From a virus: 27,206 nucleotides of DNA. Positions 16,009 through 27,206 of this stretch are shown in pieces (the stretch's first letter is position 1; every line of letters begins with the position of its first letter). The notes below the pieces were generated by a model. The model ran no database searches. It saw only the letters and a program-made list of their open reading frames with translations, and was not told where the DNA came from. The DNA lies in the IMG/VR virus record IMGVR_UViG_3300043395_002342, positions 1-27,206 of that record; one strand, given 5' to 3'. Position numbers and translations under genes: made by a program.

Positions 16009-17379
16009 ATGCAGGAAAGTTCAAGAAATTATTCGCTTGAAAAGTTTATAATAACCCCCTCAAAGGAAAGGAAGACAACTCCTATTGACTTGGGAGCGGA
16101 TGGAACTACTATTACTGATTTTTATTATTTTGAAAGTATCTTGAATGAAACTATTAAAGCAAGTGTCACATATACTGATATTGGAAAATACCCTGTTGGT
16201 GATGGGGTCACAAAAACAGTTATGGAGGGAATGCCAATAGAGGGTGGAGAGGATGTTGATATTAGTTTCAAAGATATGAATCATGATTCTACTTTGAAAT
16301 TCAAACTTCAAGTTAGAACTCCAAATCAAATATCTAGAGATACTACTAGATCAGTTGTGAATTTAGATCTAGTGTCTCAAGAAAGTATTATGAATTATAA
16401 GAAAGTTTTGAATAGTAAGTTTGATGGTAAAATATCCGAACACATAAAGAAAATTCTTACAACTAGTTTTGGTATTGGAGAAGATAAGTTAGATATTGAA
16501 GAGACTGATAATAACTATAATTTTATAGGTAATAATTTTCATCCATTTTATGTTTCTCATTGGTTAGCTAATAGATCTGTTCCTAAAGGTTTACTTGGAA
16601 ATAGTGCTGGATTTTTATTATTTCAAACCTCTGATGGTTTTAAATTTAAATCAATTGACAACCTGCTGTCATTACAGGATGAGAATGGCAATCAAAAAAA
16701 GATGAAGAAATTTATATTCAATCAAACTGTAGATCTTCCAGTAGATTATGATGCTAAAATTTTAGAACTTGAACCACCAAGTCCAAATGGTGATATTGTA
16801 AGTAAGTTGGAAGCGGGAACTTATTCGACGAGAACTATTCTTTTCGATCCCTTTGATTGTTATTATGAGGTTGTCAATCCTAATACTCAGGGAGGTGAAG
16901 GTGTATTAGCCAGTGAAAAGAAAACTAAGAAGGCTGGAAAAAATTTACCAAAGATAAATTCCAAGTTTAATAATACTGAAACAAATAAAGACTTTTCTAA
17001 AACAAAATACTACCTTATAGATAGAGGTTCTCTACCATCAGGACCAACTGATGAGCAAATTAAGAAGTCGAAAGATCCTAATTTTGATCCAAGGCGTATT
17101 TTGAATCAATCCTCTATGAGATATAACCAACTGTTTTCTTCTAGAACTACTATTACTATTTTTGGAGATTTTAGTCTTCACGCTGGAGATTTGATTTGGA
17201 TTGATCCGCCCAGAGGATCAAATAAAGATGGTCAGGGATTAGACGACCATTTAGGTGGAGCATATTTGATTGCTGATTTATGTCATTATTATAATTTGAC
17301 TCACGGATGTTATACAAAAATTACAGCAGTTAGGGATTCTACAGGCAAAAAAGGAAATCCATCATATAATGCTTTATAA
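16009..17379 (+). CDS. 27: Baseplate hub protein, gp27-like
   Basis: A 456-residue protein (T4 gp27: 391). It opens with FIITPSKERKTTPIDLGADGTTITDFYYFESILNETIKASVTYTDIG, a pattern of phage hub proteins, and contains DLVSQESIMNYKKVLNSKFDGKISEHIKKIL, a shared gp27/gpD-type region. The C-terminal part includes SMRYNQLFSSRTTITIFGDFSLHAGDLIWIDPP...GGAYLIADLCHYY. Gene order hub then gp5 matches T4-type logic, since gp27 trimer and gp5 form the central hub and spike. An AGGAG lies 11 bases upstream of the ATG. The identity to gp27 is by position and overall pattern, so moderate certainty. Confidence 0.65.
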   Translation: MQESSRNYSLEKFIITPSKERKTTPIDLGADGTTITDFYYFESILNETIKASVTYTDIGKYPVGDGVTKTVMEGMPIEGGEDVDISFKDMNHDSTLKFKLQVRTPNQISRDTTRSVVNLDLVSQESIMNYKKVLNSKFDGKISEHIKKILTTSFGIGEDKLDIEETDNNYNFIGNNFHPFYVSHWLANRSVPKGLLGNSAGFLLFQTSDGFKFKSIDNLLSLQDENGNQKKMKKFIFNQTVDLPVDYDAKILELEPPSPNGDIVSKLEAGTYSTRTILFDPFDCYYEVVNPNTQGGEGVLASEKKTKKAGKNLPKINSKFNNTETNKDFSKTKYYLIDRGSLPSGPTDEQIKKSKDPNFDPRRILNQSSMRYNQLFSSRTTITIFGDFSLHAGDLIWIDPPRGSNKDGQGLDDHLGGAYLIADLCHYYNLTHGCYTKITAVRDSTGKKGNPSYNAL

Positions 17380-17384
17380 AGTTG

Positions 17385-17392
17385 TTAAATAG
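17385..17392 (+). promoter_or_regulatory. Possible variant late promoter TTAAATAG upstream of the CP12-like gene
   Basis: TTAAATAGTA occurs just after the gp27-like stop, 34 bases before the CP12-like ATG. The same 10-mer lies at 22746, 32 bases before the spike-like gene. It resembles NATAAATA with one change and a fixed distance to the start. Weak evidence. Confidence 0.3.
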
Positions 17393-17418
17393 TAGTAATT
17401 AGTTTATATACTAACGCT

Positions 17419-17631
17419 ATGGAAAGCGTAGAAAAGCACATTGAGCACGATAAAAAGATTCTTGATGATCCTATGATTTCTGCTCAATCAAGAAGACACA
17501 CTGAAGAAGAACTACAAGCACTTGAGAGATGGGCTGATACTCATCCAGAAGATCACCACGATCCATCTTCTCTTGAACTTTATTGTAATGATAATCCCGA
17601 TGCTTTAGAATGTAGGGTTTATGAGGACTGA
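17419..17631 (+). CDS. CP12-like Calvin cycle inhibitor
   Basis: A 70-residue protein whose C-terminus, SLELYCNDNPDALECRVYED, carries the CP12 signature: a CX8C pair (C56, C65), D-N-P and the C-R-x-Y-E-D end that inserts into GAPDH. In cyanobacteria CP12 ties GAPDH and phosphoribulokinase into an inactive complex; cyanophages carry CP12 genes and are thought to shift carbon toward the pentose phosphate pathway. The N-terminal half lacks the first Cys pair and the AWD.VEEL core, having instead ISAQSRRHTEEELQALERW, so it may act mainly on GAPDH. It is in the middle of the baseplate operon, overlapping the gp5 start by one base (TGATG). No Shine-Dalgarno. An unrelated structural protein with a chance CP12 tail is unlikely but not excluded. 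Confidence 0.75.
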   Translation: MESVEKHIEHDKKILDDPMISAQSRRHTEEELQALERWADTHPEDHHDPSSLELYCNDNPDALECRVYED

Positions 17632-19136
17632 TGAGTTTATATAATCCTGGGTTTCTTGGTGAACACTTTAAGTGGTGGATCGGACAGATTGCCGATGATT
17701 CCACTTGGCGTGATAATATTTTGCCTGGAAAATTTGAAAGTAAAGATCAAGTTCCTGGGCACGGGTATCGATATAAAGTAAGAATCATCGGTCTTCACGA
17801 TCAAGGTGAGACTGAAATTCCTTCTGATCAGTTGCCTTGGGCACAGGTTATGTATCCTGTGACTGGTGGTGGTGGACAGGCTAATGCTGGAGCAACATCA
17901 AACTTAAGACAGGGAATGTTCGTTTTCGGTTTCTTCCTTGATGGAATGGACCAGCAAGTTCCTGTTATAATGGGAGTACTTGGCAATAACATTCAAACTA
18001 AACTTGCTTCTACTATTGGCGATAATAAAGTCACTAATAATAATCCTGGATCATTAGCAGTAAGTGGAAATGCTAACTCCGCAAAAGGAAATACTGATCC
18101 ATTTAGAAAAGTTCCAGATAAGGGACTTGACATTCGGGGATCATCTGAAACTAAACCAACAGTAGAAACTGTAACTGGTGTTCACAAAGTAACTAAAGCA
18201 GACGTAGTTAGAAATGACTACTATCAGAAGAAAACTGTTTTAATGTCTCCTTGCGAACATGTTAAGTCAGCACTAAAAGCAATTCAAACTGAACTTGATA
18301 ATTTAGTAAAAGAAATTGATAAAGTTTTAAACGCAGCGCAATCTTATATTGATGCCGTTTCTAATTTTATCTCAAGCATCCAGGATTTGATTGCTGACTT
18401 TGCTTGTAAAATAGCAAAGTATATGAAGATTGTTTTTAATAAGATTAAAGAGTATGTATTAAAAACAATTAACAAAGCGTTATCACCAACAATAGACGCA
18501 TTACCACCAAATCTTCGTTATACTTATTTTGATGTGAAGTCTTCTATTACGGAATTAATTAATTGTCTATACGCTAAAATTACAAATAACCTTTGCGGAT
18601 TAATTCAGTCTCTTTTGAATGGGCAAATAGAGAGATCCTTACCTAAAGATAAGAGACTTAGATCTCCCAAACCTCAGATATGCGCTGCTGAAAAGTTTAC
18701 TGGAGATTTAATCGCATTAAATATGGATGAAATGAACACCGGTGTTAATGGTATTTTAGATAATATTAATAATTTTCTAAATGATATTCAATCTCAACTT
18801 GGAGTTGTTTCTGGTGGAATTGGTGCGGTAAAAGATATAATTGGTGGAGTAAGTGGAAGTATTACCTCAGCACTCAGTTTTGAAAATATTAAATTGAATG
18901 TTTTTGGATGTGATCTTAAACCAAATTGTGCGACATCAGATTACTACACCTTACAAAATGGATCAGGTGCTGCCGAAGATCCACAACAACCAAGACCATC
19001 TGAAGTTGATAAAGCAGCACAGGGAACTCCACCAACAGCTAAAGCAACGGAAAAACCATATGCTCAACCAAGTAGAAATCAACCAGATGTAATAAACAGC
19101 ATCAATCAGGCAACACAATTTATAAGATCAATCTAG
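17631..19136 (+). CDS. 5: Baseplate hub/spike protein gp5, without lysozyme domain
   Basis: A 501-residue protein. The first about 130 residues match the OB-fold domain of gp5 (WWIGQI..D.....RYKVRIIGLHDQGETEIPSDQLPWAQVMYPVTGGGG, then MFVFGFFLDGMDQQVPVIMGVLGN), the part that in T4 sits on gp27. T4 gp5 then has a lysozyme and a C-terminal beta-helix; here neither is visible. Instead residues about 200-330 are helical (LVKEIDKVLNAAQSYIDAVSNFISSIQDLIADFACKI...), with Cys residues, and the C-terminus is Pro/Gln-rich and probably flexible. Start ATG at 17631 overlaps the CP12-like stop. The cell-wall and spike functions are probably supplied by other genes here (10868, 13031, 22778). Confidence 0.78.
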   Translation: MSLYNPGFLGEHFKWWIGQIADDSTWRDNILPGKFESKDQVPGHGYRYKVRIIGLHDQGETEIPSDQLPWAQVMYPVTGGGGQANAGATSNLRQGMFVFGFFLDGMDQQVPVIMGVLGNNIQTKLASTIGDNKVTNNNPGSLAVSGNANSAKGNTDPFRKVPDKGLDIRGSSETKPTVETVTGVHKVTKADVVRNDYYQKKTVLMSPCEHVKSALKAIQTELDNLVKEIDKVLNAAQSYIDAVSNFISSIQDLIADFACKIAKYMKIVFNKIKEYVLKTINKALSPTIDALPPNLRYTYFDVKSSITELINCLYAKITNNLCGLIQSLLNGQIERSLPKDKRLRSPKPQICAAEKFTGDLIALNMDEMNTGVNGILDNINNFLNDIQSQLGVVSGGIGAVKDIIGGVSGSITSALSFENIKLNVFGCDLKPNCATSDYYTLQNGSGAAEDPQQPRPSEVDKAAQGTPPTAKATEKPYAQPSRNQPDVINSINQATQFIRSI

Positions 19137-19139
19137 ACC

Positions 19140-19147
19140 AATAAATA
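19140..19147 (+). promoter_or_regulatory. T4-type late promoter AATAAATA with strong ribosome site
   Basis: AATAAATA immediately after gp5, expected start near 19153. The leader holds AAAGGAGAT directly before the ATG at 19168, the strongest Shine-Dalgarno sequence in the tail operon. Confidence 0.6.
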
Positions 19148-19167
19148 TCATTAACTAGAAAGGAGAT

Positions 19168-22100
19168 ATGTCGTTTAATTTATTTGCTTCACCTACTAAA
19201 GATGATATTAGAGTTGGTTATGTGGACCCAACTCTTGGGTATGTTGATGGAGTTTCTGTCTGCGAAGCAAATGATTATGCGAAAAATAATCCGGGGACTG
19301 TTTTTGTTTTTAGAGACGGCGATAATAATATCAAATATTTGAACATTAATGAGGTTAATGGTCTGACTCCAAATGATCTCACCGCAAAAAATGGTGAGTG
19401 TGGTGGAGTACAAAACTATAGTGAGTGTGGTACACCGAGAATTCAGTTCTTTGGTGGTGGGGGAATAGGCGCTGTAGGAAATCCTGTTATAGGTATAGAT
19501 GGTTCTTTACTTGCTGTTGATATTGTAAGTGGCGGACACGGATATCAATATGCCCCTATTGTTGCTGCTAGAGATGATTGTGAGATTGGAAATGGTGCTG
19601 TCCTTACCGCTATTCTTGGGGAGACTGTTGATGAAATAGAAGTTTATGAAGGTGAGGAAGACTTTGAAGACTATGAAATATGCGAAGATACTGATGTTGG
19701 ATATGGCGTTAGGTATGGTTTAAATGGAGAAGTTCTGGGACCCTGGGAACCATCTGCGTATACGAAGATAGGTGCTGATCCTATTCAAAGAGAAATTGAA
19801 GCATTTCAGAAAGCACTTAAAAATCCATTTTGGACAACAAGAGAAAAGCAACCTGATAGAATCACTGTAGTTGGAGAATCATTCGCAACTCAAGAAGCAG
19901 TTGGTGTAACTTTCCCAGACTGGGGAGAGTTTATGAATAAGTATGCGATCTCTCCAGTTCCTCCCTCCGATACAAGAGGAAGTGATCAGGCAGGAAAAGT
20001 TTTTAATATCGAATGGGAAACTAATTTCCCTGTTAGTGGTGAATATATTTTTAGGGGTGTTTGTGATAACATCGGTAAAGTTTATATTGACAATACCTTA
20101 ATTGGAGATTTGAAGGGATTTACTGATAACCCAACACCACTTCAAAAAACAATTCAAGAAGGTAATCATATCATTAAAGTTGAATTGTTGAATGTCCCTA
20201 TTATGAAAAAGGTAGAGACTAAGGCAAGTATAAATGACGTTGATGTGACCTTTACTATTACTGGTCAAGGGAGAAATACCAATAAAATGAAGTTTTCTTT
20301 TGTAAGTGGTGATAAGACTTTTACTCTTAATGGAAATAATAGTAGTGGTACTAGTAGAACTCAAACTATAAAATTAAATCCAAAATCAACATTTAAAGTT
20401 TATGCTTCTTCCACAAAGGGAACTGTCGAGCAGGGTATAATTAAAAATGGCACAAAGAATAAAGAAGGTGGTATAGGAGAGTCGAATAGAATTTTTGCGG
20501 ATCATATTCAATCTGATAATGATAATGATGATATCCAAATTACAACTAGCATTGGAACTTTTAAAGCAACTAATAGATCAAAAACTCCAGAAGGTAGAAC
20601 TACTTTTGATTTGACTTTTGAAGTTGGGTCAACTACATCTCCTGGCATTACGGTTAGTGAAGTAATTTCTCCAAAATCTTGGAATGAAAATCCTATGGGG
20701 GTATCAATGATTATTGATGCTCCTCAACCTCCAGTTCCTCAGGAGCAACCTCCAGTACAAACAGGAAGATGTCCACCCAATCCTATTTGGTCTACAAGAT
20801 TTCCTGGTTCTCAGCAAAAATGGTATCCAGTTAGAAACAAAGAGTGGTCGAAATTCTTTAATAGATATGCCGTATCTCCAGTTCTTCCTTTAGATACTCC
20901 TGGAAGTGATGTAAGCGGAGTCGTTCATAAAAATTCTTGGGATCTAGAAATTCCTTATAGGGGATTTTATAAGTTCCAAGTACAAAGAGATAACACAGCA
21001 AGGATTTATGTTGATGGAAAGATTGCTTTTGATGTTTTAACTTCTGGTGATGAGAAATGGGTGAAGGAGGGATTAGTTGGAAGAGTAAAATCTCAGAAAG
21101 TTTTTCTAGAAAAAGGTCGTCATACTATATCCATTGAACTTGAAAACACCCCACAGAATACCCAGTCAGTCATAGATACGAAGATCTTTAGTACACAGGA
21201 TTGGAGAGTTTCTGGCACTCAAAATAGTTCTTCCAAACTTAAGGCTAAATTTATTCAGCAGGGAGCGGGTTTTTATTTACAAGTTGATGGATCTGGATCT
21301 GGAGAAATATCTTTTGTTATGGATGTTAGCGATAACCCAGGAATTGCTGGACTAGCTGCTACTGAAATTAGAATTCCTTCAGATTCTGGAAAAGTTAAAT
21401 TTATAAGGTCTTCTTTTCAAACAGAACAAACTATAAAAGAAAGTGGTAAATTTACAGGTGGTAAAAAGTATGGACCAATAGAAATTATTGGTTCCGGTGT
21501 GGGGGCAAGGGGACCAATAATTAATGGTTCAAATATACTTGGGATCAGAGATGCTGATGGGGATGATCAGAATATTAAGATTACAATTGATAACGTAAAG
21601 TCATCTTCACCATCAGCTCCAGCAACCTCACAAAGTCCAACAAAAAATGGGGTGACTTACACTGGACCTTCTTTGATTGGATACAGTGATAAAAGGTGGA
21701 GTAAATTTATGAATGAGTTTTCTGTCTCACCTTCGGATGTTAATGCTCCTGGAACATTTACTTTAACTTGGTCCGGAGTTAACTTTCCTTATAATGGAAC
21801 TTATAAGTTTAATTTACAGGCAGATAACAGCGCAAAATTAAAAATTGGCGGTGTTGACATAGTAGAAATTGCTGATTTTGTTGGTGAAAAAGTTCAATAT
21901 ACATTTAATTTAACTGCTGGTAAGTACGATGTTCAACTTACTTTGAATAATGTTACCCCACCTGGATTAAGTACCAAAGATAACCCAACGGGTGTGGCTC
22001 TTTTTATCAGTAAAGATGTTGTATTTTCTGATAACAATAAAACTTCCTGGACTACCAATCCCGTAGCAATATCTGCTATTTTAATTCCTCCACCATGTGC

Positions 22101-22740
22101 TAAAAGGATAGGTGGAAAAGGAGTAGTTCAAGAAGTTATAGTGAATGACCCCGGAAATGGTTATGTTCCTGTGGAAAGTCCTGGAACTGGTTATCCAGTC
22201 ACTCTTGTTTTGGATAGGGTTATTGTTGAAAATCCTGGAATCAATTATTCTTGTGGAGAAGACCAAATTGTAATTACCCCAAGTAATGGTGCCCAACTTT
22301 CTTATGATTGTGATCCATTTGGTAAAATAAGATCAGTTAAAGTTTTAAATCCTGGTCTTGGATTTAATGTTTATCCTGAAATAAGTATCCCATCATTAAC
22401 TGGAGTTAACGCATCCTTTAGACCTGTTTTCCGTATAGTAAGAGACCCGTTAATCGAACCAGAAAAACTCATTCAAGTTACTGATTTGGTTGGTCTTAAG
22501 CAGACTGGATATGTGGATGGTAGAGCATACTTTGGCGCTATTTACTATGATGAAGGTATTCCATATGCTGGTTTCTACAAAACCGCAGGACCTCAAACAA
22601 GAGTATACGCAACCCTACAAGAAAGCATCACTGCTCAAATCACTACGCCACCAAGTGCTATTCAGAGGTCTGGTACTGACATTAGAAGTAATGATCCTCG
22701 TCTTAATATTCCTGGAACTCCAGAATCAACTACAGAATAA
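19168..22740 (+). CDS. Large virion structural protein with three tandem beta-sandwich-like repeats
   Basis: A 1190-residue protein not matched to a T4 gene. Three copies of a domain of roughly 300 residues are visible, starting near residues 219, 539 and 838. Each has a W-(G/S)-(E/K)-F-(M/F)-N-(K/R/E)-(Y/F)-(A/S)-(I/V)-SP segment, then NFP..GEYIF / EIPYRGFYKFQ / NFPYNGTYKFN, then a DN..K(V/I)Y(I/V)D(N/G) type element, and an Asn-Pro-(M/T)-(G)-V segment. The pattern recalls carbohydrate-binding or PA14-like beta-sandwiches. Flanking modules at about residues 100-150 and 980-1090 share Gly-Tyr motifs (GGHGYQYAPIV; NDPGNGYVPV; NPGLGFNVYPEI). It is probably an adsorption or baseplate-peripheral protein. 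The strong promoter and ribosome site before it suggest high expression. No signal peptide. Confidence 0.7.
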   Translation: MSFNLFASPTKDDIRVGYVDPTLGYVDGVSVCEANDYAKNNPGTVFVFRDGDNNIKYLNINEVNGLTPNDLTAKNGECGGVQNYSECGTPRIQFFGGGGIGAVGNPVIGIDGSLLAVDIVSGGHGYQYAPIVAARDDCEIGNGAVLTAILGETVDEIEVYEGEEDFEDYEICEDTDVGYGVRYGLNGEVLGPWEPSAYTKIGADPIQREIEAFQKALKNPFWTTREKQPDRITVVGESFATQEAVGVTFPDWGEFMNKYAISPVPPSDTRGSDQAGKVFNIEWETNFPVSGEYIFRGVCDNIGKVYIDNTLIGDLKGFTDNPTPLQKTIQEGNHIIKVELLNVPIMKKVETKASINDVDVTFTITGQGRNTNKMKFSFVSGDKTFTLNGNNSSGTSRTQTIKLNPKSTFKVYASSTKGTVEQGIIKNGTKNKEGGIGESNRIFADHIQSDNDNDDIQITTSIGTFKATNRSKTPEGRTTFDLTFEVGSTTSPGITVSEVISPKSWNENPMGVSMIIDAPQPPVPQEQPPVQTGRCPPNPIWSTRFPGSQQKWYPVRNKEWSKFFNRYAVSPVLPLDTPGSDVSGVVHKNSWDLEIPYRGFYKFQVQRDNTARIYVDGKIAFDVLTSGDEKWVKEGLVGRVKSQKVFLEKGRHTISIELENTPQNTQSVIDTKIFSTQDWRVSGTQNSSSKLKAKFIQQGAGFYLQVDGSGSGEISFVMDVSDNPGIAGLAATEIRIPSDSGKVKFIRSSFQTEQTIKESGKFTGGKKYGPIEIIGSGVGARGPIINGSNILGIRDADGDDQNIKITIDNVKSSSPSAPATSQSPTKNGVTYTGPSLIGYSDKRWSKFMNEFSVSPSDVNAPGTFTLTWSGVNFPYNGTYKFNLQADNSAKLKIGGVDIVEIADFVGEKVQYTFNLTAGKYDVQLTLNNVTPPGLSTKDNPTGVALFISKDVVFSDNNKTSWTTNPVAISAILIPPPCAKRIGGKGVVQEVIVNDPGNGYVPVESPGTGYPVTLVLDRVIVENPGINYSCGEDQIVITPSNGAQLSYDCDPFGKIRSVKVLNPGLGFNVYPEISIPSLTGVNASFRPVFRIVRDPLIEPEKLIQVTDLVGLKQTGYVDGRAYFGAIYYDEGIPYAGFYKTAGPQTRVYATLQESITAQITTPPSAIQRSGTDIRSNDPRLNIPGTPESTTE

Positions 22741-22745
22741 GTCTA

Positions 22746-22753
22746 TTAAATAG
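22746..22753 (+). promoter_or_regulatory. Possible variant late promoter TTAAATAG
   Basis: Same TTAAATAGTA word as at 17385, placed 32 bases before the ATG at 22778 in a 37-base intergenic gap. Confidence 0.3.
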
Positions 22754-22777
22754 TATTACATTGATTCTTCAATACTA

Positions 22778-23446
22778 ATGGCAACAGTAAGAAATACCAA
22801 TAATACTAAGGTTGGTTCTCGACCTAAAGCGGGGAGAGAAGAACTTCTTGCTGCTAATATTTCAAAGAACAATACTGCTAAACAAAATTATACGGCAATA
22901 ACATATGGAAATGATCATGGTTCAATAAGTTTTGGGCATATCCATAAACAAGGTGATGTAACATCTGATGTATTAATTGAGGCATCAGATGCTAGACATT
23001 CTATTGTCCTTGATAAAGATGGTGTTAGGAAAGGTGGAACACAAATCACGGCACCTGGAAGAATATCCATTGAATCTGGAATTGATAAGAGTGAAGGAGA
23101 AGATACATTATTCATTCATTCTTGGAATGGAAATATAGATATAGTAGCGACAAATGGAAAACTTAGACTTCAGGGAACTGATATTGAGCTTACTGCTGTA
23201 GGTGAGGGTGGGACAAAGGGTAATATTAGGTTCACCGCTAAAGGAGGGACCATTGAATCTGATAGTGATAAATTATTACTCAATGCATCAACTTTATATA
23301 AATTAGCAACTCCCGGAACAGCACAAATACTTTCGAATACTGTTATGCAGATATACTCTCCGTTAATTCGTGGAGTTACTGACGCTGTCACTAATAAGAA
23401 TGATAAGAATAACAGTCAAAGAATGAGACAACAACTTTCAAAGTAG
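22778..23446 (+). CDS. Beta-helical structural protein, possible spike tip/needle
   Basis: A 222-residue protein. Residues about 65-200 are short alternating strands with Gly/Asn/Asp turns (NGNIDIVATNGKLRLQGTDIEL, GNIRFTAKGGTIESDSDKLLL), like the C-terminal beta-helix of T4 gp5 and VgrG proteins. The HGSISFGHIHKQGD stretch is characteristic. In T4 this needle is part of gp5; here gp5 (17631) lacks it, so this gene may supply it. The C-terminus is charged and disordered. No clear Shine-Dalgarno, and a variant late promoter lies upstream. The role is inferred; a fibre or collar function cannot be excluded. Confidence 0.6.
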   Translation: MATVRNTNNTKVGSRPKAGREELLAANISKNNTAKQNYTAITYGNDHGSISFGHIHKQGDVTSDVLIEASDARHSIVLDKDGVRKGGTQITAPGRISIESGIDKSEGEDTLFIHSWNGNIDIVATNGKLRLQGTDIELTAVGEGGTKGNIRFTAKGGTIESDSDKLLLNASTLYKLATPGTAQILSNTVMQIYSPLIRGVTDAVTNKNDKNNSQRMRQQLSK

Positions 23447-23455
23447 GAGAAAAAA

Positions 23456-24118
23456 ATGGCATTTTTGATGGATGATAGTGCGGTTGGTGGTCAAATGATG
23501 GTTGGTGCTGGAGTACCAAAAGCACTTGGTCTTGGAAAAAATAAAATTAATGGATCTGGATATGTTGAAGGACCCTTTCAAGCTGGTCAAGCAGGTGCTC
23601 ATAATACCTGTAAAGCAACTTTAATGCTTGGACCACTAACAAATCCAGACGCAAAAGTGTCTCCACTATATTCTTTATGGTCTCGACTTTATTCGAGATT
23701 TCAAAGTTTTGTGAGAGTTGATCTTCTTTTGAAGTCAACTTACATTGAAGCAAGTGTAGTAAGGACCAAAGTTCTTCAAGCATCAATTAAGAACTTTGTA
23801 ATTCCACATCCAACAAAACCCGGAAAGCAATTAGTTCACACTTGCCTTGAAGGTCCCGAAAATGGTGTTTATGTTCGCGGAAAACTTACAAATAATACTG
23901 AAATTATATTACCAGAATACTGGACAAATCTTGTAGATGAAAGTACAATTACAGTATCAATAACTCCAGTTGGAGCACATCAAGACATTATTGTTAAAAG
24001 AATCGGAGATAATAAAGTATATCTTCAGGCAAAACCTGGAATACCTATTAATTGTTTTTACCATGTTTTTGGTACAAGAAAAGATGTACCACAACTAGTC
24101 ACGGAGATTGAAGAATAA
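23456..24118 (+). CDS. Virion structural protein A of a tandem paralogous pair
   Basis: A 220-residue protein preceded by TAGGAG. The N-terminal 110 residues are variable with a Gly-rich start; the C-terminal domain from residue 112 (KNFVIPHPTKPGKQLVHTCLEGPENGVYVRGKL...LPEYWTNLVD...ITVSITPVGAHQDIIVK) is a domain I have seen in cyanophage tail-fibre and structural proteins. The next gene carries the same domain at the same residue offset. The stop overlaps the next ATG (TAATG). It is likely a fibre or baseplate-peripheral protein; T4 homologue not recognised. Confidence 0.72.
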   Translation: MAFLMDDSAVGGQMMVGAGVPKALGLGKNKINGSGYVEGPFQAGQAGAHNTCKATLMLGPLTNPDAKVSPLYSLWSRLYSRFQSFVRVDLLLKSTYIEASVVRTKVLQASIKNFVIPHPTKPGKQLVHTCLEGPENGVYVRGKLTNNTEIILPEYWTNLVDESTITVSITPVGAHQDIIVKRIGDNKVYLQAKPGIPINCFYHVFGTRKDVPQLVTEIEE

Positions 24119-24825
24119 TGGCATTTTCTTTTAGAAAATATGGGACTTTTACTGGTCCTGGTGTAGATATAGAATATCGTGATAATGATGATTTTTCATT
24201 AGAACCATTTAGTGGATACTTCAATTTGAATGATGTATCAATGGTTCTTGTTAATACTTCTGAATCTCCTCCAGATTATGTGTATTTTCATTTGAAGGGA
24301 TCTAACACAAAAAATGTAACTTTAGAAGCTAGTTATGGTCCCATTAAAAAACTTAACATCGAGTCTGAGATTTTAAAAGTCAGTGGAATGGTAAAGGCTG
24401 ACATAGTTAAAGCTAAACAGTTTGTTGGAAAAATTAACACTCAGAGTTGGAAACATTTTGATATTAAGCATCCGAACAAGGAAGGTTATCGTTTACGCCA
24501 TAGTTGTATAGAGGGACCTGAAAATGCTGTTTATCATAGAGGAAAATTGGTCGATAGTAATGTAATAGAATTGCCGGATTATTGGACAAACTTTGTTGAT
24601 CCAGAATCAATTACTGTAAACCTTACTCCATTTGGTGTCTATCAAGAATTATTTGTGAAAAATATTGAATGGGGGAAAAAGATAAACATAGTGAATAACT
24701 TAGGTGGACCAATCAATTGCAGTTATATTATTTGTGGAGAAAGAATTGATGGGCATAAATTGATTGTTGAATATGAAGGACAGAGCTCTGAAGATTATCC
24801 CGGAATTTATGAAGAGGAAGACTGA
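24118..24825 (+). CDS. Virion structural protein B of the tandem paralogous pair
   Basis: A 235-residue protein. From about residue 112 it has WKHFDIKHPNKEGYRLRHSCIEGPENAVYHRGKLVDSNVIELPDYWTNFVDPESITVNLTPFG, parallel to the previous gene; the first 110 residues differ. The C-terminus is acidic (EEED). The pair presumably arose by duplication of the shared C-terminal domain, with different N-termini that may direct them to different partners. The ATG overlaps the previous stop by one base, so translation is coupled. Confidence 0.72.
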   Translation: MAFSFRKYGTFTGPGVDIEYRDNDDFSLEPFSGYFNLNDVSMVLVNTSESPPDYVYFHLKGSNTKNVTLEASYGPIKKLNIESEILKVSGMVKADIVKAKQFVGKINTQSWKHFDIKHPNKEGYRLRHSCIEGPENAVYHRGKLVDSNVIELPDYWTNFVDPESITVNLTPFGVYQELFVKNIEWGKKINIVNNLGGPINCSYIICGERIDGHKLIVEYEGQSSEDYPGIYEEED

Positions 24826-24834
24826 GGAATATAA

Positions 24835-25800
24835 ATGACTAACATATCAAGCGTTAAGACTTCAAACACTGAAGCGTTAGAAGATATTTCTAAATCAAAC
24901 ACCGCACTTAGTGGTGCTTTAGGCACTGCTAGTACAGATTTTGCTACTTATTTGTTTCCCTGTGCCGAATTTGATAAATTAATTCTCAATAAACTTGATG
25001 AGATTAATGTCAAAAAAACTCAGATAGTTACTTTATTAACCGATAACTACAATAAATTAATTATCAATTGTGGAATAGCGACAAAAGATCCTGGTGTTGC
25101 TGGGATTTCTAGTGGTTCTTTTGTTCCCGCATCTGGGATAAAAAGCGATGCTTGCCTAATCGCAACTAGTATAGTAAGTATATCATCTACAGCAGTCGTC
25201 TCTGGATCTTCCACTACATTTAATTATAATTGTCAGGTTTATATTGACGGATCTGGTGGAGTTGGTCTTGGCACAACGGAACAGTGTGATATTGGGGCTC
25301 GTGGAGAAGTAAGAAAAGAAACTGTTTATTCTCTTGTTTATCCGTATCTGGAAAATATGATAGTGACAGTAGATGACTGGACTGGAATTACTCCTTTAGA
25401 TGGAAACATAATTGCGGCTGGTGGTGGTCCAGTTGGGGTTCTTACTTATGTTGGGATTGGAACAACTAACTTGGGTATAGGAAATTCTGTTTTTTATTTT
25501 TCTGATGCGTATGATCCAAAATCAATTCACAAAAATCAATCACAATTGATTGGTTATTATTATCCAATTGATGATCCTGGTTGTGGCACTACGATTACGA
25601 GTTCAGTTCAAACATTAGAGAACGAAATTATTACGATTAGAAGTGGAATAAGTACTTTATTATCTCCAACAAATAATGCTAGAATTTTAAAAGTAGATTC
25701 TCAAACTGATGTCTGGTGGATCACAAAAACCCAGTCTACAAATTCGAGTTCTACTTCGTCTATAAACACACTTAACTCCGATTTGGATAATATTCTTTGA
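24835..25800 (+). CDS. Virion structural protein, unknown
   Basis: A 321-residue protein following a GAGG ribosome site, 10 bases after the previous stop. The N-terminus is Ser/Thr-rich and helical, about 30-70 holds a LDEINVKKTQIVTLLTDNYNKLI helix, and the rest is beta-like with Gly/Ser/Thr-rich strands (e.g. GGPVGVLTYVGIGTTNLGIGNSVFYFSD). The C-terminus is a helical, Ser-rich segment that could trimerise. The composition fits a tail or fibre-related protein. I do not recognise a T4 homologue. It ends in a late promoter box (GATAAATA overlapping its TGA). Confidence 0.65.
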   Translation: MTNISSVKTSNTEALEDISKSNTALSGALGTASTDFATYLFPCAEFDKLILNKLDEINVKKTQIVTLLTDNYNKLIINCGIATKDPGVAGISSGSFVPASGIKSDACLIATSIVSISSTAVVSGSSTTFNYNCQVYIDGSGGVGLGTTEQCDIGARGEVRKETVYSLVYPYLENMIVTVDDWTGITPLDGNIIAAGGGPVGVLTYVGIGTTNLGIGNSVFYFSDAYDPKSIHKNQSQLIGYYYPIDDPGCGTTITSSVQTLENEIITIRSGISTLLSPTNNARILKVDSQTDVWWITKTQSTNSSSTSSINTLNSDLDNIL

Positions 25801-25806
25801 TAAATA
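25799..25806 (+). promoter_or_regulatory. T4-type late promoter GATAAATA
   Basis: GATAAATA overlaps the TGA of the preceding gene. Expected start near 25812 gives a 15-base leader to the ATG at 25827, with no strong Shine-Dalgarno. Confidence 0.55.
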
Positions 25807-25826
25807 TTTAAAATCGTTCTAGTTAA

Positions 25827-26162
25827 ATGGCAGTTGCTGAGATCACTAATATTGTAATTGAAAAAGGAACTGATTTTGAAGCGACTTTCAATTTATTCGA
25901 ACCGGATCAGTCGGCAACAGTTTTGTCTGGTCTTACTACAACATATGCTACAATAAGAAAATATCCAGAATCAACAACTGGCGAAGAGTTTGGTAAAACA
26001 ATTACCGCTGGAACTGGTACTATCAAACTGACATTAACTTCTACTCAAACTGCAAATCTCAAAGCGGGTAGAAATTACTTTGATGTTGTTTTAACTATTG
26101 GTGGAAAGAAAACTAAAGTTATTAAAGGAACCGCAATAGTTGAGGAGAGTGCTTCCGTATGA
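25827..26162 (+). CDS. Small beta-sandwich structural protein
   Basis: A 111-residue protein with ITNIVIEKGTDFEATFNLFE, TTTYATIRKYPES and IKLTLTSTQTANLKAGRNYFDVVLTIGGKKTKVIKGTAIVE: the strand pattern of small Ig-like/BppU N-terminal-like domains found near phage tail fibres. Probably a fibre-attachment or baseplate decoration protein. Its stop overlaps the next start (ATGA at 26159). Function is inferred from pattern. Confidence 0.65.
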   Translation: MAVAEITNIVIEKGTDFEATFNLFEPDQSATVLSGLTTTYATIRKYPESTTGEEFGKTITAGTGTIKLTLTSTQTANLKAGRNYFDVVLTIGGKKTKVIKGTAIVEESASV

Positions 26163-26500
26163 CTTACAAGGTTTCTGTTTCTTCCCCATATAACTTCACA
26201 GTAAAGTCATTACAATCAAAAAAATATAAAACATCACTCAACTTTAATATAGAAATTATGCCCCAATCATTAGACGAACTTGCAGATGTTCAACTTAGTG
26301 GAAATAATTATAATGGATATGTCTTAATGTATGACTCTGTAAGTGGAAAGTGGGTAGATAAAAATCCAGATGAAGTTCTATCAGCGGCAACTACAGAGTT
26401 GGATGCTAACAGAATCACGACAACACTTCCAACAGATTTCGAAACTAAACTTGACATTGATCTTGATGATCGTATTGATTTGGATGCAGGTGGTTTTTAA
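26159..26500 (+). CDS. Small structural protein, tail-fibre associated
   Basis: A 113-residue protein. The middle SLDELADVQLSGNNYNGYVLMYDSVSGKWVDKNPDEVL follows the D-V-x-L...G-x-V-L-x-Y-D-x-x-x-G-K-W-V repeat seen in many phage fibre proteins. The C-terminus is Asp/Leu-rich. It overlaps the previous gene by 4 bases and precedes the fibre-like gene, and could be a connector or chaperone. Confidence 0.65.
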   Translation: MTYKVSVSSPYNFTVKSLQSKKYKTSLNFNIEIMPQSLDELADVQLSGNNYNGYVLMYDSVSGKWVDKNPDEVLSAATTELDANRITTTLPTDFETKLDIDLDDRIDLDAGGF

Positions 26501-26505
26501 TATAT

Positions 26506-26513
26506 TCTAAATA
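26506..26513 (+). promoter_or_regulatory. Possible variant late promoter TCTAAATA
   Basis: TCTAAATA in the 45-base gap upstream of the ATG at 26546, differing from NATAAATA at one position. Leader of about 27 bases. Weak. Confidence 0.3.
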
Positions 26514-26545
26514 ATATTATTAGGAAAACTACATAGGTAATTAGA

Positions 26546-27206
26546 ATGGCTTCACCAGTCTTACAGTTTAAGCGTGGTAATATTGGAGTAGCAGCAACTA
26601 TTCCTGCTCTCCGTCCAGGTGAACCAGCATTTACTCTTGATAAGTTTGATTTATTCGTTGGTTTTGATACTTCGGTTGTTGGTAATAAATTCTTTGGTTC
26701 TCATCGCTATTGGGAAAGAGAAGATACTTCAACATCTCTTCGCCTAAAGTTGGTGGACAAAGATGGTACTAATTATGTTGCTGTCAAGTCTCCAAATACT
26801 CTTGCTGGAAGTGTTACTTATGTTCTTCCAGGAACTCAGGGAGCAACAAGTTCTGTTCTTACCAATGATGGTAGCGGAAACCTAACCTGGGCAAGTGGAT
26901 CTGCTAACCCAGTTTTCAGTGGTATTGCTACTTTCACTGATACCACTGATAACACATTAGGTGATGCCAATACTGGTTCCGTTCAGATTGATGGTGGAGT
27001 TGGAATTAATAAGAATGTCACTGTTGGTGGTAATTTAAATGTTCAGGGATATAGTGAATTTGTAGGAGTTGTAACATTTAAAAGTGGCACAATCAATCTT
27101 GGTGATGATACTGGAGATAATATTAATGTTGGTGGTGAGTTTACTTCTGGATTATATCCAAATACAACAGATACTTATGATTTAGGAGATGGATCAAGGC
27201 AGTGGA
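26546..27206 (+). CDS. Tail fibre-like virion protein, N-terminal 220 codons (runs off the window)
   Basis: Open from the ATG at 26546 to the window end, so C-terminally incomplete. It starts MASPVLQFKRGNIGVAATIPALRPGEPAFTLD..DLFVGF, the LKRG...P..GEP.....T..LFVG signature found at the N-terminus of many cyanophage fibre and structural proteins. It continues with Ser/Thr/Gly/Asn-rich repeats (GVGINKNVTVGGNLNVQGYSEF, then SGTINLGDDTGDNINVGGEF) and a LYPNTTDTYDLGDGSRQW segment, as in trimeric fibre shafts. A TAGG lies upstream of the ATG. Likely host-recognition or structural role; the diagnostic C-terminal end is outside the window. Confidence 0.75.
   Translation, partial: MASPVLQFKRGNIGVAATIPALRPGEPAFTLDKFDLFVGFDTSVVGNKFFGSHRYWEREDTSTSLRLKLVDKDGTNYVAVKSPNTLAGSVTYVLPGTQGATSSVLTNDGSGNLTWASGSANPVFSGIATFTDTTDNTLGDANTGSVQIDGGVGINKNVTVGGNLNVQGYSEFVGVVTFKSGTINLGDDTGDNINVGGEFTSGLYPNTTDTYDLGDGSRQW

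Follow-up and report, generated by a model that had tools for sequence, protein, structure and literature searches.

Why would a cyanophage keep a gene for CP12, the proposed switch for cyanophage shutdown of host carbon fixation, among the genes of its baseplate, and when would such a gene be read? The question is raised by a 70-aa open reading frame at positions 17419-17631 (+ strand, ATG start) of the window, by which we mean the whole 27,206-nt stretch of viral DNA analysed here. The initial annotation had described a CP12-like protein that binds GAPDH without contacting phosphoribulokinase (PRK), encoded at an unusual place that implied late expression or a second role.

Identity and conservation of the CP12 gene

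Pfam, PHROG and PDB matches all identified the frame as CP12. The Pfam CP12 profile, PF02672, whose cut-off is 22.7 bits, scored 46.8 bits (E 5e-12), PHROG 627, a family with no function label, matched with E 4e-29, and the best PDB sequence matches were CP12 chains, with the CP12 of 6gfo at the top (E 3e-6). The protein matched 372 phage records, whose organism names start with Synechococcus, Cyanophage, Prochlorococcus or Marine; in 362 the match spans 80% or more of the query. An AlphaFold model (mean pLDDT 92.8) contains helices at residues 4-16, 22-41 and 51-58; its best Foldseek match, itself weak, was CP12 chain 6gfo_F (E 0.028, probability 0.93), and the VIA structural alignment of the model to CP12 was also weak (Z 2.9).

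The protein contains exactly two cysteines, C56 and C65, in a CX8C spacing (17584-17613, + strand) that is invariant in 16/16 and 26/26 aligned phage CP12s, and it ends in CRVYED. The proposed identity and both C-terminal signatures were thus confirmed. This pair is described in passages of PMC9623430 as the redox hairpin of CP12 that binds GAPDH. The N-terminal half (residues 1-40; 17419-17538, + strand), with two predicted helices, has neither a cysteine pair nor AWD. When aligned with 6gfo, the CP12 of T. elongatus, the N-terminal cysteine positions are taken by L15 and S24, and in the core region HTEEELQA aligns with DALEELQA, with loss of AW. The N-terminal cysteine pair is therefore absent, as first noted, since both cysteines are C-terminal. 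The AWD.VEEL core, said to be absent altogether, has indeed lost AWD but retains EEL; E31 and L32 are invariant in alignments of 16 and 26 phage CP12s, as are H7, I8, D11, R26, H27 and L35.

The median dN/dS of phage cp12 was 0.15 (388 pairs with dS of 0.2-1.5, from 62 distinct 70-aa genes), and mean pN was 0.17 in codons 1-40 and 0.13 in the last 30 codons. Phage cp12 is under purifying selection and both halves are constrained. Given the family matches and the median dN/dS, cp12 is a maintained gene and a chance frame is ruled out. The N-terminal half has been conserved without decay and so probably has a binding partner, which may be host PRK, contacted through other residues.

Relation to phage and host CP12s

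The cyanophage CP12s grouped as T4-GC 337 or PHROG 627 (S-SM2, S-SSM7, S-RSM4, S-WAM2) are 70-75 aa long, have the same C-terminus as the window protein, likewise lack the N-terminal cysteines and AWD, and are encoded in the order hub gene-cp12-gp5. In S-SM2 the cp12 and gp5 genes also overlap by one base and a PA14 protein comes next, as in the window. The window CP12 has at best 67% identity to those of isolates among the matches listed, and P-HM2 CP12 is of the same protein type at 56% identity. We found no near DNA match for positions 16009-27206 among phage records.

The CP12s of picocyanobacterial hosts (Cyanobium, Synechococcus, Prochlorococcus) are 72 aa long, with two cysteines and no AWD, and share with the window protein, at ~43-51% identity, a type marked by an HPED-HDP linker and an ECRVYDD-type tail. 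The phage proteins have two residues fewer than the host N-terminal half and carry DDPxxSxQxRRH in that region. The canonical CP12-N/C of Synechocystis and plants shares with the window CP12 the C-terminal cysteine pair, the tail and the EEL of the core, whereas its N-terminal cysteine pair and AWD are missing from the window protein. All 80 CP12 loci from cellular records had two cysteines and no AWD; the scan that retained these 80 of 546 was anchored on C-terminal patterns and is therefore biased to the C-type, and a few of its records resemble mis-binned phage contigs. A whole-genome search of ten picocyanobacterial genomes with PF02672 gave 11 matches, the best being of the C-type in 10/10 genomes. 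Ten of the 11 are the already extracted C-type genes, judged by place and length, with six re-read directly; the eleventh (L195), a second copy in one genome, also lacks the canonical core.

Judged by these comparisons, the window gene is a true CP12 of the picocyanobacterial C-type, and its half-missing motif is a host trait rather than a phage innovation. Passages of PMC9623430 tie the N-terminal cysteine pair and AWD to PRK. They also report that Synechocystis CP12 without the N-terminal pair complements growth with glucose to almost the wild-type level, that the GAPDH-binding pair is the critical one, and that the authors rank GAPDH inhibition as more critical than association with PRK. 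Inhibition of host GAPDH is, from the sequence, the most likely role of the window CP12. Binding of GAPDH without PRK contact, as first suggested, is thus plausible, but its phage-specific part falls, because host CP12s share the same make-up; in the C-type as a whole, the contact with PRK may be weak or of another kind.

Two groups of related proteins were noted in passing. Seven loci (L105-L107, L109, L111, L121 and L161) encode CP12s with a phage-type extra 5 residues while being filed under Euryarchaeota, Nonlabens, Rhodopirellula or Anaerolineales, and probably stem from cyanophages whose contigs were binned into the wrong genomes. On two marine virus contigs from single cells (L093, 3806-4075; L096, 3809-4075), proteins of 88-89 aa combine a C-terminus resembling that of CP12, EVYCDNHPDxxECRVYD, with a longer N-terminal half that differs from that of CP12.

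Placement of cp12 between baseplate genes

The gene upstream of cp12 (16009-17379, + strand) belongs to PHROG 350, annotated 'tail protein', and to T4-GC 15 in isolates. Pfam and PDB sequence searches with this frame gave no match. Its structure model (23 sequences, pLDDT 80), however, matched T4 gp27 (1k28_D, E 1.8e-16; 2z6b_D, E 2.6e-17) and 9mkb_iC with a TM score of 0.61 on the query, suggesting a gp27-like central hub protein. Cyanophage T4-GC 15 / PHROG 350 proteins, labelled 'tail protein' or 'hypothetical', would thus have the T4 gp27 (VgrG-type hub) fold that sequence searches missed, and in light of the model this family is likely the missing gp27 of cyanomyoviruses. Downstream lie a gp5-like baseplate spike gene (17631-19136, + strand; Pfam and PHROG matches) and a gene for a PA14-domain virion structural protein (19168-22740, + strand; gene order as in S-SM2). 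With a T4 gp27 fold upstream and gp5 downstream, cp12 sits between two genes of the cell-puncturing device, in agreement with the two baseplate hub genes named initially.

The overlap with gp5 was also borne out: the cp12 stop codon shares one base with the gp5 ATG in TGATG (17629-17633, + strand). Among 69 distinct cp12 tails, 36 have TGATG or TAATG, and this arrangement makes translational coupling of cp12 and gp5 likely. The idea that a gp5 Shine-Dalgarno sequence is fixed inside the cp12 tail was rejected, as GAGG, AGGA or GGAG is present in only 12 of the 36 coupled tails.

A survey of cp12 locations showed that the hub position recurs. When proteins of the window itself served as queries (a tally with neighbour-built profiles was set aside as circular), the hub gene and gp5 directly flank cp12 in 63/80 IMG/VR loci. 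Five more have gp5 on contigs that start no more than 39 nt upstream, two have the hub gene on contigs that end no more than 64 nt downstream, and ten (L069-L076, L078, L079) have cp12 without either neighbour. We also looked at 23 regions from isolate or single-cell records, picked from the matches for variety and not at random. There the hub gene and gp5 are the immediate neighbours of cp12 in at least 10 (S-WAM2, DSL-LC03, S-CAM4, S-SSM7, S-SM2, DSL-LC02, SynMITS9220M01, S-RSM4, S-PRM1, S-CAM9), or 11 with S-T4, whose neighbours are labelled hypothetical. Extra genes, among them cpeT, tRNAs and an oxygenase, intervene between cp12 and gp5 in seven (S-RIM50, S-TIM4, S-SSM4, Syn9, ACG-2014a, ACG-2014d, S-RIM2), cp12 is elsewhere in the genome in three (P-HM2, S-TIM5, S-SRM01), and two are unannotated single-cell contigs. 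Sullivan et al. (2010) state that cp12 can be located "near gp5". On these counts and that report the position is ordinary and published; the placement first thought unusual is the commonest site examined.

Of the ten non-hub loci, three (L069, L071, L074) were checked for their other frames: a DNA methyltransferase is nearby in two and a MazE-like protein in two, and no metabolic neighbours of cp12 were seen in the three. The cp12 region of S-SRM01 resembles the ten.

A late-type element ahead of cp12

The gap before cp12 contains TGTTAAATAGTA (17383-17394, + strand), a late-promoter-like element 36 nt before the cp12 ATG, with its TAAATA core at 17386-17391, 33 nt upstream of the ATG. The cyanophage late promoter consensus is given in the text of PMC2984593 as NATAAATA; the window element reads GTTAAATA, the A at the second place of the consensus being absent. 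The TTAAATAGT variant before cp12 recurs ahead of the gene at 22778, which shares the TTAAATAGTA late-element variant with cp12 (window 22747-22778).

After removal of duplicates and of loci with <50 nt upstream, 74 of 103 entries remained; L043, cut at its contig start, was left out of the upstream analyses. TAAATA stands at -45 to -18 in 56 of these 74 distinct cp12 upstreams, compared with 282 of 14,800 random positions. Its presence follows the gap before cp12 (38/39 where the gap exceeds 20 nt, 8/24 where it is smaller), and it was found in 10 of 11 cp12 upstreams with no long frame within 400 nt. None of the ten non-hub loci is among the upstreams without it. At other ORF starts of the same loci the counts were 86/153 for gaps of 20-200 nt and 9/170 for gaps up to 20 nt, and in the rightward late region of the window 7 of 8 genes with a gap >20 nt, cp12 included, have TAAATA at -45 to -18. 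Where the gap leaves no room for the element, cp12 is presumably transcribed together with the hub genes upstream.

In the window's clade, which differs in this from the T4-GC 337 isolates, TGTTAAATAGTA is invariant in 15/15 aligned gaps while other bases vary; these gaps were chosen among loci carrying TTAAATAG, so that the count shows a contrast with the flanks and not a frequency. Across 1.18 Mb of viral loci, TGTTAAATAGTA occurs 36 times, each time 29-37 nt before cp12. We rejected the element as a cp12-specific regulator site, as shared descent of the syntenic gap accounts for this uniqueness. An IMG/VR scan with the 12-mer plus ATG returned at least 80 loci, none of those 80 encoding CP12, and was uninformative, being swamped by chance matches. 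No conserved RNA structure was predicted in the gap (zero pairs over 15 sequences), and in the window the gap ahead of cp12 showed no sigma-70-like promoter on the cp12 strand. Across the 74 cp12 upstreams, 18 have sigma-70-like sites scoring at least 9/12, compared with 7.5% of random positions, a comparison confounded by other genes.

Proposed role and timing of cp12

We consider it probable that the window gene, a C-terminal-type CP12, was gained from a picocyanobacterial host lineage, has for a long time been a settled part of T4-like cyanophage genomes between gp27 and gp5, and acts on host GAPDH. Under oxidising conditions a C56-C65 disulfide hairpin would form and enter the NADPH site of the host photosynthetic GAPDH (Gap2), blocking the Calvin cycle, and NADPH, ATP and sugar phosphates would be diverted to nucleotide synthesis. 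Less certainly, transcription may run from the TAAATA element through cp12 into gp5, so that CP12 might be produced alongside tail proteins and not with psbA and talC.

The history of the locus bears on what the protein does. Over the 46 loci in which both neighbours are present, pairwise identity averaged 68% in CP12 and 40% in the hub gene; in gp5 it averaged 51% over the first 150 residues and 31% over the remainder. CP12 distances correlated with those of the hub gene (Mantel 0.68) and of the two gp5 parts (0.63 and 0.70; 999 permutations, p 0.001); the hub gene and gp5 correlated more strongly with each other (0.88-0.92). By these sequence distances cp12 has long travelled with the hub module while being more conserved than the module, as expected for a protein that fits a conserved host enzyme. 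No evidence was found for the second role first suggested, and it is very improbable that CP12 has turned into, or doubles as, a hub component in the virion or in assembly: the fixed position between the gp27-like and gp5-like genes, the overlap with gp5 and the tracking of hub distances speak for such a role, but CP12 is far more alike among phages than its neighbours are, it keeps the metabolic cysteine pair, and the Syn9 record labels gp16, and not gp17 (cp12), as structural. Moreover, cp12 is off the hub in P-HM2, S-TIM5, S-SRM01 and ten IMG/VR loci, and is therefore not required at the hub. We regard as unlikely the reading of the initial annotation, in which a loss peculiar to phages removed the PRK half and left an effector of GAPDH only; the window protein does lack the features tied to PRK (PMC9623430), but these are missing from host CP12s as well, and the N-terminal half has been kept in phages rather than decaying.

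As to timing, P-HM2 cp12 is the only measured phage cp12 that we found. Unlike that of the window, it adjoins talC near psbA, with an endonuclease gene on its other side, has a sigma-70-like site, and was measured as middle (Thompson et al. 2016); the text of PMC5082946 places the P-HM2 auxiliary metabolic genes, cp12 included, exclusively in the middle cluster and reports psbA as a middle gene. Upstream of P-HM2 cp12 are TTGACA-17-TAGGAT and also CATAAATA, with TAAATA at -30; P-HM2 psbA has TAAATA at -43, and the element precedes 9 of the 29 spaced genes of the P-HM2 early/middle region. Because P-HM2 middle genes carry TAAATA too, the late-type element is enriched at late genes and not exclusive to them, and because P-HM2 cp12 has a similar element, late expression of the window cp12 is unproven. 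Passages of PMC2984593 propose that cyanophage middle genes combine early and late promoters. The late expression first suggested does gain plausible support from the element, and from the sequence we judge it about as likely as not that a hub-embedded cp12 is expressed late, or both late and earlier. In the literature searched we found no description of a late promoter ahead of cp12, which is no proof of absence.

We tentatively propose, as a quite possible arrangement, two temporal regimes set by place in the genome: cp12 beside talC and psbA would be middle, whereas cp12 locked between gp27 and gp5 would be late, with a dedicated late promoter (in the window's clade, on the same tentative footing, TGTTAAATAGTA) and coupled to gp5. 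Somewhat doubtful, though to be taken seriously, is a CP12 of the same function that is expressed in the middle period as in P-HM2, with a TAAATA that is there by chance or belongs to a dual early/late promoter, and with a site beside gp5 that is no more than an insertion hot spot. The P-HM2 measurements and the CATAAATA before its cp12 argue for middle expression, Sullivan et al. (2010) call the region near gp5 a hot spot, and other genes have entered between cp12 and gp5 in 7/23 regions; but the good sigma-70-like site of P-HM2 has no counterpart on the strand before the window's cp12, and gene order and spacing in the window's clade are far more constant than a hot spot would lead one to expect.

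If the commonest cp12 copy is late, the timing model based on P-HM2 fails for most such phages, and the CP12 inhibitor would be of use in assembly or in the final rounds of genome replication rather than in redirecting carbon early. Should the two-regime proposal be true, Calvin-cycle shutdown would coincide with tail assembly in these uncultured phages, an exception to the rule that cyanophage metabolic genes are middle genes.

Two further observations concern individual genes. Syn9 gp17 (L098, 15325-15537), named only gp17 in its record, is a CP12, so expression data for Syn9 bear on the timing question. In the window itself, the frame at 559-1155 has its best matches among HNH and endonuclease families and weaker ones to families named anti-sigma factor Srd and decoy of host sigma70.
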